Notes under the pieces: generated by a model | What the model saw: the letters and a program-made list of their open reading frames with translations, nothing else | Databases searched by the model: none | Told to the model about the DNA's origin: nothing | Position numbers and translations under genes: made by a program | Shown here: positions 1 to 1,712 of the stretch, in pieces | How the letters are laid out: each line of letters opens with the position of its first letter | Numbering within the stretch: the stretch's first letter is position 1 | Assembly: GCF_902459565.1 (NCBI RefSeq) | Contig: NZ_CABPSN010000003.1 | Coordinates: 62,001 to 126,000, forward strand | Length of the DNA: 64,000 nucleotides | Origin: Pandoraea aquatica | GTDB lineage: Bacteria > Pseudomonadota > Gammaproteobacteria > Burkholderiales > Burkholderiaceae | Direction of reading: 5' to 3'

Positions 1-1
1 C

Positions 2-274
2 GAGCTGTTCAAGAAGGCAGTCGAGCTTGAGTATCGCTACGCAGAAGACACGATGCCGCGCGGCGTGCTCGGTCTGAACGCGGGCATGTTCAAGAGCTAC
101 CTGCGCTTCATCGCGAATCGTCGTTGCGCACAGATCGGTCTCGAAGCGCTCTACCCGAACGAAGAGAATCCGTTCCCGTGGATGAGCGAGATGATCGACC
201 TGAAGAAGGAGCGCAACTTCTTCGAAACGCGAGTGATCGAGTACCAGACCGGTGGCGCACTGAGCTGGGACTAA
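2..274 (+). CDS. nrdB: Ribonucleoside-diphosphate reductase, beta subunit (C-terminal part, gene cut by window edge)
   Basis: Only the last 90 codons are present. The frame is open from the left edge and ends at TAA 272-274. The visible part matches the end of class Ia NrdB: helix residues [13 protein letters not shown], the motif NPFPWMSEM, and the tail [10 protein letters not shown]. In this family the extreme C-terminus docks into the NrdA catalytic subunit so that electrons can pass from the tyrosyl radical. The diiron ligands lie upstream of the window and cannot be checked. NrdA/NrdB make deoxyribonucleotides in the cytosol. No T-rich terminator follows immediately; the first terminator-like structures are at about 495-605 and 858-890. 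Confidence 0.93.
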
Positions 275-617: not shown

Positions 618-646
618 TTAACATCGCATCACAAAAGAATTATTAT
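618..646 (+). promoter_or_regulatory. Sigma-70-type promoter for the predicted RNA upstream of hctB
   Basis: TTAACA at 618-623 (5 of 6 consensus) and TATTAT at 641-646 (5 of 6) are separated by exactly 17 bases. The region is AT-rich within a GC-rich chromosome. The predicted start of transcription is about position 653. Confidence 0.65.
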
Positions 647-652
647 TCGCTC

Positions 653-890
653 AAATAAATTGCAGTCTCGATGAACACACGAAAGCACTCACTGCTTTCC
701 TCCCGCGACAGAGAGCTGGTAGTTACGGAGCGTAAAAACCTTGGTGCATAGCAAGCTGTATCGCTTATCCGCTATCGCAATCTCCTCCATCCCGATGACG
801 GGACAGGCAAGCTACCCCCCGAAGAATCTGGCGATCCCCCTTTCTCAAGACAATCGAATTGCTGGCGGCAATGTCGCCGGCAATTTTTTT
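653..890 (+). ncRNA. Predicted structured RNA, about 240 nt (small RNA or attenuated leader)
   Basis: The interval starts at the predicted start site of the promoter at 618-646 and ends at the intrinsic terminator at 858-890. Hairpins visible by eye are GAAAGCA/TGCTTTC (681-687 with 693-699, perfect), TTACG/CGTAA with flanking GGT/ACC (718-740), TGCATAGC/GCTATcGCA (745-752 with 771-779, one bulge) and TCCCG/CGGGA (790-794 with 799-803). Between them lie C-rich tracts: TTTCCTCCC (697-705), TCTCCTCC (781-788), ACCCCCC (814-820) and TCCCCCTTT (835-843). Such tracts could pair with Shine-Dalgarno sequences. I do not recognise a known RNA or riboswitch family. It may be free-standing or the conditionally terminated leader of the histone-like gene. 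Confidence 0.5.
858..890 (+). terminator. Intrinsic terminator of the predicted RNA
   Basis: ATTGCTGGCG (858-867) pairs with CGCCGGCAAT (875-884), with one G-U pair and a 7-base loop, and is followed by an uninterrupted T-run ending at 890. It is a classic rho-independent terminator in the plus direction. It lies 180 bases upstream of the histone-like start codon, so it does not end a coding gene directly. Confidence 0.8.
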
Positions 891-1070
891 GCGCGCGTGA
901 CCACATACGGTCAGCGTCATGCGCGCAGCGCCGAATTCATTAGCGTAAGCGGTCGTAGTTCGATGCGTACGCCGATGAATAGCCCGCTCGCCGGCGGTTC
1001 CCGCACGGTGGTCGGGTTTCCTTCTCAGGTAGTTTCGTTTGAGTGATCTCTCACGTTAAGGAGTTTTGTC

Positions 1071-1712
1071 ATGGCTACGATTAAGAAGGCTGTTGCCAAG
1101 AAGCCGGCGGCTAAGAAAGCTGTCGCCAAGAAGCCCGTTGCAAAGAAGGCTGCTGCTGCCAAGAAGCCGGTAGCGAAGAAGGCCGTTGCTGCCAAGAAGC
1201 CGGTAGCAAAGAAGGCAGTTGCCGCTAAGAAGCCGGCAGCAAAGAAGGTTGCCGCCAAGAAGCCGGTCGCCAAGAAGGCAGCGGTGAAGAAGGTTGCAGC
1301 TAAGAAGCCGGTTGCCAAGAAGGCAGCAGTGAAGAAGGTTGCCGCCAAGAAGCCGGTTGCCAAGAAAGCAGCAGTGAAGAAGGTTGCCGCCAAGAAGCCG
1401 GCCGCCAAGAAAGCAGTGAAGAAGGTTGCTGCCAAGAAGCCGGCCGCGAAGAAGGCAGTTGCTGCCAAGAAGCCGGCTGCGAAGAAGGCTGCTGCCAAGA
1501 AGCCTGCTGCCAAGAAGGCTGCTGCTAAGCCTGCTGCGAAGAAGGCCGCTGCGAAGCCTGCCGCGAAGAAGCCTGCTGCGAAGAAGCCGGCCGTCAAGAA
1601 GGTTGCCGCTAAGCCCGCTGCTGCAGCTCCGGCCGCAGCACCCGCCGCAGCACCGAAGACGGCACTGAACCCGGCAGCAGCATGGCCGTTCCCGACCGGC
1701 AGCCGTCCGTAA
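1071..1712 (+). CDS. hctB: Histone H1-like nucleoid protein, Lys/Ala/Pro-rich (HctB/AlgP type)
   Basis: This 213-residue protein consists almost wholly of AKKP, AAKK and VKK units, so it is extremely basic and without a globular domain. Proteins of this kind bind DNA through the lysine-rich repeats and are thought to compact the nucleoid or influence gene expression. Residues 60-104 are three exact copies of a 15-residue unit. The tail changes from Lys-rich to an Ala/Pro linker (about 181-204) and ends WPFPTGSRP, typical of Burkholderiales homologues. The start is supported by AAGGAG (1058-1063) seven bases before ATG. No convincing promoter is visible between the upstream terminator and the gene, so transcription may come from the promoter at 618-646. 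Two hairpins follow the stop. Confidence 0.9.
1248..1382 (+). repeat. Three tandem 45-bp units inside hctB
   Basis: The protein unit [15 protein letters not shown] occurs three times without change (residues 60-74, 75-89, 90-104). The DNA copies differ only at a few synonymous third bases. A slightly shortened fourth copy follows. Such in-frame repeats can change in number by slippage. Confidence 0.8.

Follow-up and report, generated by a model that had tools for sequence, protein, structure and literature searches.

A conserved reading frame spans an intrinsic terminator in the leader of a histone H1-like gene of Pandoraea aquatica: a candidate translation-coupled attenuator

Results

Organization of the locus

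We analyzed a 64,000-nt stretch of the Pandoraea aquatica genome (the window), near the start of which a histone H1-like gene is preceded by a gene that we take to be nrdB (ribonucleotide reductase beta subunit). The DNA between them had been described in an earlier note as a predicted structured RNA with C-rich tracts. The features that we assign are collected in Table 1.

Table 1. Features of the nrdB-histone interval in the window
Feature	Coordinates	Strand	Basis
3' end of upstream neighbour, presumably nrdB	1..274	+	C-terminal reading frame; same neighbour in relatives
Sigma-70-type leader promoter, TTAACA-17-TATTAT	618..646	+	consensus matches 10/12, kept within genus
5' leader hairpin	681..699	+	predicted folds; loop-closing pair partly covaries (by eye)
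GGAG ribosome-binding site of leader ORF, 10 nt 5' of start	727..730	+	sequence; homologous GGAG/AGGA in relatives
Leader ORF, TTG start, 101 codons, stop TGA 1044-1046	741..1046	+	frame conserved across relatives
UCUCCUCC tract, ORF codons, possible partner of GGAG 727-730	781..788	+	helix 2 of core alignment
Intrinsic terminator within leader ORF, U-run 884-890, 143 nt past start codon	856..890	+	fold; conservation
Second hairpin (AUUCAUUAGCGU...ACGCCGAUGAAU), within ORF	935..980	+	fold z -2.65; relatives; pair counts
AAGGAG ribosome-binding site of histone gene	1058..1063	+	sequence
Histone H1-like gene	1071..1712	+	PF07382 E 1.3e-25; NF038053

The histone protein scores 129.2 bits against NF038053 (hist_H1_lk_Burk, cut-off 80) and 91 bits against PF07382 (cut-off 40), and its gene is the only PF07382 gene found in the P. 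aquatica genome. The number of repeats in this gene differs strongly between relatives; for the Cupriavidus metallidurans gene, an excerpt of PMC13192273 reports a hypervariable region with five possible mutations. A first search of plasmids gave no match; in a second one, the matches span no more than roughly one third of the query and, among the matches listed, cover only its first ~275 bases, i.e., the histone-repeat end.

The leader ORF, which is unannotated and ends 24 nt upstream of the histone start, runs through both the terminator and the second hairpin. The promoter that the earlier note had read by eye holds up, with its 10 of 12 consensus matches and its conservation within the genus. 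In the alignment of the four most divergent relatives within the genus, identity is 0.90-0.98 at 601-652, compared to 0.00-0.24 in the nrdB-proximal spacer 274-540; across Pandoraea, the whole of 601-890 is far better preserved than this spacer. Similar promoters precede the leader in Cupriavidus, Ralstonia and one further genome (G035). We also agree with the note that there is no clear promoter between 890 and 1071: no other site matches the consensus there on the plus strand, in a scan that is blind to other kinds of promoters.

Distribution of the leader

The DNA at 600-900 is present in 30 of the 31 other genomes of the genus. The sole miss is G002, a genome of 1.2 Mb assigned to Pandoraea, in which three genus-covering searches did not find the leader. 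A covariance model of the 720-830 core, built from 33 sequences and possibly following largely the ORF sequence, identified one place each in 124 of 398 genomes (8 of 25 genera), and the places that were retrieved stand upstream of a histone-like gene. A pattern scan of named genomes produced at least 120 stretches; the matches listed include Pandoraea, Ralstonia, Cupriavidus, Burkholderia and Paraburkholderia, also Caballeronia, Trinickia, Pararobbsia and Polynucleobacter, as well as Burkholderiales metagenome-assembled genomes, one of them labelled Lautropia. Four unrelated matches among those listed were taken as chance; by our own estimate, about 3.5 chance matches are expected for the full collection. 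With a slightly looser pattern, an order-wide draw of 300 genomes yielded 13 matches, in 8 of 9 Burkholderiaceae and 4 of 9 members of one other family, with one match dropped.

Two second copies (L033, L034), one locus that has no histone gene (L267), and four pattern matches outside Burkholderiales that have no neighbouring histone gene (L146, L170, L186, L189) were removed. A histone-like ORF lies at most 300 nt downstream in 200 of the 203 distinct loci. It should be noted that the Lautropia-like and other Burkholderiales loci (L195, L234-L266) have the second hairpin and the histone gene, with the arm loop spaced differently (45-57 nt); the ORF start reads AGGA-TTG in several of L234-L266 and is unclear in L195, L263 and L264.

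Conservation of the leader reading frame

The relatives have an ORF that begins with TTG or ATG behind a GGAG or AGGA site and extends to the second hairpin. Among the 172 loci with an assigned start (Burkholderiaceae and the Lautropia-like group), the ORF frame is open in 170, compared to 21 and 16 for the other two frames. After clustering at below 75% identity, the frame is open in 18 of 18 clusters (the other frames, in 2 and 4), and 4.7 open frames would be expected under a first-order Markov model. A first pass without the Lautropia-like group gave 165 of 168, compared to 20 and 13. Thus, the frame of the leader ORF is conserved far beyond chance. The distance from the start to the hairpin takes 26 different values among 168 loci and is a multiple of three in 154 of them, and in 156 of 169 loci the ORF stop is located between -35 and +55 nt relative to the histone start.

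Six Cupriavidus loci (L037, L039, L041, L092, L096, L097) have lost one base upstream of the second hairpin and gained one base inside it, and the frame therefore regains its usual stop. In eight other Cupriavidus loci (L049, L056, L087, L090, L091, L093, L098, L099) the frame terminates within the second hairpin, in L107 the ORF has 27 codons only, and in the symbiont L144 and in Pararobbsia the frames are broken or restarting; these cases speak against the model proposed below. In the second pass, 31 of the 203 loci had no assigned start: the Ralstonia loci among them, L050 and L084 have it outside the searched stretch, yet their frame is open on inspection, and several Paraburkholderia loci had been assigned and open in the first pass. 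Seven loci (L158, L187, L195, L244, L249, L263, L264) are unscored for frame.

Two other reading-frame candidates were rejected. The ORF is not an N-terminal extension of the histone, the gap between its stop and the histone start not being a fixed number of codons, and a 26-codon ORF seen by eye from ATG 671 is shifted out of frame in most relatives by a two-base change in a hairpin loop.

An intrinsic terminator inside the ORF

The strong intrinsic terminator claimed in the earlier note is confirmed both by its excess of folding (-21 kcal/mol from 856, z -4.1, with 0 of 200 shuffles as good) and by its conservation within the genus (identity of 0.92-0.95 in the alignment of the four most divergent relatives); a consensus terminator scan of the stretch did not list 856-890. 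U7 terminators within the ORF were scored in 51 of 168 loci, comprising 28 distinct Pandoraea loci and 23 of Polynucleobacter type. The frame is open through the terminator in 50 of the 51, and also in L137 once its start is re-assigned. U-run terminators are also found in five Lautropia-like loci (L236, L239, L254, L265, L266), and the distance from the start codon to the U-run is 125-146 nt in all three lineages (counted by hand in the last one). In Polynucleobacter, 99.4% of the cells of the terminator stem are paired (16 of 18 distinct sequences), and the stem covaries, with 11 double-change cells compared to 2.0 in shuffles (0 of 500). Of the 168 loci, none from Cupriavidus, Ralstonia, Burkholderia, Paraburkholderia or Caballeronia was scored as having a U-run terminator within the ORF; these genera nevertheless retain the frame, so the ORF must have some other importance in them.

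Folding of six Pandoraea loci predicts that the 5' terminator arm pairs upstream before its partner is made (mean probability 0.46-0.60), which is suggestive of an antiterminator. In these loci, the GGAG of the leader is also predicted to be largely paired, with a probability of at most 0.13 of being unpaired for three of the four bases; this predicted burial suggests access to the leader start as a control point.

RNA structure and C-rich tracts

The interval 653-890 as a whole folds with z -1.93 (6 of 200 shuffles as good), whereas 720-860 shows no excess over shuffles (z +0.83, 159 of 200 as good). Because 720-860 folds no better than shuffles, most of the hairpins drawn in the earlier note are not evidence for a structured RNA: of its four, the one at 681-699 appears in predicted folds, and the other three lie within 720-860. 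The note had looked to conservation of the stems in relatives; the 720-860 stems are not stable, and the hairpin at 718-740 is missing in L029-L031, which counts in part against its reading. By eye, the loop-closing pair of the 681-699 hairpin is A-U, G-C or G-U, with an A-C mismatch in some species.

A riboswitch-like structured RNA at 720-860 was rejected on this lack of fold excess; what remains is covariation of two helices of the core across genera. In the cross-genus alignment, five pairs have double changes, and there are 16 double-change cells compared to 4.1 in shuffles (0 of 500), stemming mostly from changes outside Pandoraea; an inner variant of the last core helix is weaker. Taken with the pairing data for the terminator stem and for the second hairpin (below), this indicates RNA-level structure, but one that overlaps a reading frame. 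As the earlier note had said, no named RNA family is recognizable: at the curated gathering score, Rfam gives 0 matches in the 64-kb window, and at E values up to 10 or 1 there are only matches far below threshold.

The C-rich tracts had been read as single-stranded anti-Shine-Dalgarno elements, either of a free small RNA or of an attenuated leader of the nucleoid-protein gene. Within Pandoraea, those at 782-788 and 814-819 are mostly retained, the tract at 698-705 varies, and that at 836-843 is not preserved in the divergent species; a role of the tracts in nucleotide sensing was rejected on this last point. The two that are kept are codons of the leader ORF, which goes against the free small RNA, and the second option, the leader of what is the histone gene, is supported. 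Tract 782-788 could pair with GGAG 727-730 in helix 2, in which 97% of cells are paired; because this helix is almost invariant, covariation does not speak for the pairing. If paired in this way, the tract would act in cis, on the ribosome site of its own ORF, and not in trans.

The exact pattern of the second hairpin occurs in 103 of 398 family genomes, in four genera, and the reversed pattern is absent among the matches listed for these genomes. The same-genus alignment shows that conservation extends beyond 890 up to this near-invariant hairpin; because most loci were collected via an exact match to it, its invariance is partly by construction. Among 62 of 108 distinct sequences, 95.3% of its cells are paired, and there are 31 double-change cells compared to 10.4 in shuffles (0 of 500). 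These double changes are confined to two pairs, 9 of the 15 pairs never vary, and the numbers of covarying pairs and of pair types are not unusual (77 and 229 of 500 shuffles, respectively). The possibility that the element is a promoter was rejected on the variable spacing of its arms (match lengths 41-57 nt).

Selection on the leader peptide

Four versions of the leader peptide have no Pfam or NCBIfam match, and a short motif near GWA-YP is recurrent across genera. The pN/pS values for frames 0, 1 and 2 are 0.90, 1.12 and 0.71 in Pandoraea; 0.88, 0.95 and 0.88 in Cupriavidus; 0.76, 1.01 and 0.92 in the Burkholderia group, where frame 0 is lowest; and 0.74, 0.56 and 0.88 in Polynucleobacter. 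Thus, the ORF frame is not consistently below the other two. In codon alignments, the dN/dS of the leader ORF is 0.55-0.77, compared to 0.03 for the nrdB control in the same loci. Judging by these ratios, the peptide is weakly conserved at most, and because the pN/pS of the ORF differs little from those of the other two frames, selection seems to act on translation more than on the peptide. Synonymous differences are fewer in the leader ORF than in nrdB (0.11-0.33 vs 0.38-0.42), an indication that the nucleic acid is constrained too.

Discussion

Proposed mechanism

We propose, with a little better than even confidence, that the interval upstream of the histone gene forms its 5' leader and functions as an attenuator of transcription coupled to translation. 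Transcription would start near 653, and ribosomes would load at GGAG 727-730 and translate from TTG 741 through the terminator and the second hairpin to 1046. A ribosome following closely behind the RNA polymerase would block formation of the terminator hairpin, and the polymerase would go on into the histone gene; with the weak TTG start unused, or with a lagging ribosome, transcription would stop at about 890 and an RNA of ~238 nt would be released. We infer that the ORF is translated, that its translation suppresses termination, and that expression of the histone depends on read-through. The attenuator fits the data because the frame is kept and the peptide hardly is, and because in three lineages the terminator lies in frame at 125-146 nt from the start. 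We identified no aligned sensor element in the leader. According to an excerpt of PMC4824070, terminators near or within ORFs are repressed by close ribosomes, and the part of PMC5021804 consulted states that pyrBI requires coupling across its leader peptide.

Alternative explanations

That the frame is retained in genera lacking the U-run makes a function of the ORF independent of intrinsic termination a serious rival, i.e., translation would bar Rho or open the histone ribosome site by translational coupling, and the U-run would be a lineage-specific addition. The position of the ORF stop near the histone start in most loci is in line with such coupling; however, the in-ORF terminator is then left unexplained in three lineages, including Polynucleobacter, where its stem covaries, and Pandoraea, where it is conserved. 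We consider this explanation possible, if on the whole improbable. As a further alternative, the leader could be a free small RNA of ~240 nt that ends at the terminator, and transcription of the histone gene could be independent of it. Such an RNA would account for the presence of its own promoter and a strong terminator, for the high conservation of 653-890 within Pandoraea and for the two helices that covary across genera. It is at odds with the leaders of Cupriavidus and Ralstonia, which have no conserved terminator here and continue towards the histone gene, with conservation that goes past 890 to the second hairpin, with an open frame spanning the terminator in relatives, and with the unexceptional fold of 720-860 and the absence of an Rfam match; we regard it as unlikely. 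The attenuator model, too, allows for a short RNA with its 3' end at 890 whenever termination takes place.

If the ORF were an ordinary gene for a small protein with a function of its own, one could expect conservation of its frame and ribosome site, the recurrent GWA-YP-like motif, the dN/dS of 0.55-0.77, and the low pN/pS of frame 0 in the Burkholderia group. Yet frame 0 is not consistently the lowest elsewhere, the dN/dS of nrdB is 0.03 in the same loci, the compensated frameshifts alter part of the peptide, and Pfam and NCBIfam matches are absent for the four versions; we believe this to be very unlikely. Returning to the attenuator, a bolder and, in our view, doubtful extension is that the leader gates the histone family-wide according to how closely a ribosome trails the RNA polymerase, with selection on the reading of the ORF and not on its product, so that the histone dose would follow translation capacity, and the second hairpin would dock a regulator, perhaps the histone itself, in a feedback loop.

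Relation to known systems

The trp/his-type amino-acid leader-peptide attenuators likewise have a translated ORF and a terminator ahead of the gene, and in those systems the ORF ends before the terminator. Here, by contrast, the ORF extends past the terminator, its translation has no stretch of a single regulatory amino acid, and the peptide is hardly conserved. The CcsR/cuckoo RNAs of alphaproteobacteria are independent small RNAs whose exposed loops carry CCUCC motifs. Similar tracts are present here, but those that are kept within the genus (two) are themselves codons of an ORF that is conserved, and there is no Rfam match, in a database that may or may not include the cuckoo group. Attenuators of the pyrBI type are defined by a pause tract ahead of the terminator that is U-rich and UTP-sensitive. 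Because this tract, which defines pyrBI sensing, is missing here (the longest T run in 741-856 is 3), we do not class the leader as a pyrBI member. The likeness to the E. coli pyrBI leader (pyrL) is that a leader ORF spans an intrinsic terminator (741-1046 contains 856-890): in pyrBI, the terminator lies inside a 135-bp leader gene (PMC4824070, excerpt), compared to 125-146 nt from the start to the U-run here. The present ORF differs in its greater length (101 codons) and TTG start, in leading to a histone gene rather than to pyrimidine synthesis, and in the second, near-invariant hairpin after the terminator. In the Salmonella mgtCBR leader, translation of two short ORFs is proposed to direct the stem-loops by which transcription is regulated (PMC3641672, in the part consulted); the gene and the ORF layout differ from those described here. 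The literature searched gave nothing on this histone leader, and the main text of PMC4603805 makes no mention of histone, nrdB or leader peptide.

If the attenuator model is true, how well transcription is coupled to translation would determine the expression of a bacterial H1-like chromatin protein, with control exerted via an ORF of ~100 codons whose translation, not product, is conserved across many genera. The model is directly testable for the control of a nucleoid protein in Burkholderiaceae, and it carries the warning that a conserved "non-coding RNA" can prove to be a translated leader.

Other observations in the upstream spacer

A GC-rich inverted repeat, GGATGCTTCGCGCAAAGCGAGCATCC, is located at 289-316 directly downstream of nrdB, in a part of the spacer that is wholly divergent in the four distant relatives. 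At 594-613, immediately upstream of the -35 box, there is TGTGCGCTTTTTTATGCACA, perhaps the remnant of an nrdB terminator; Cupriavidus has a T-rich stretch at the equivalent position.
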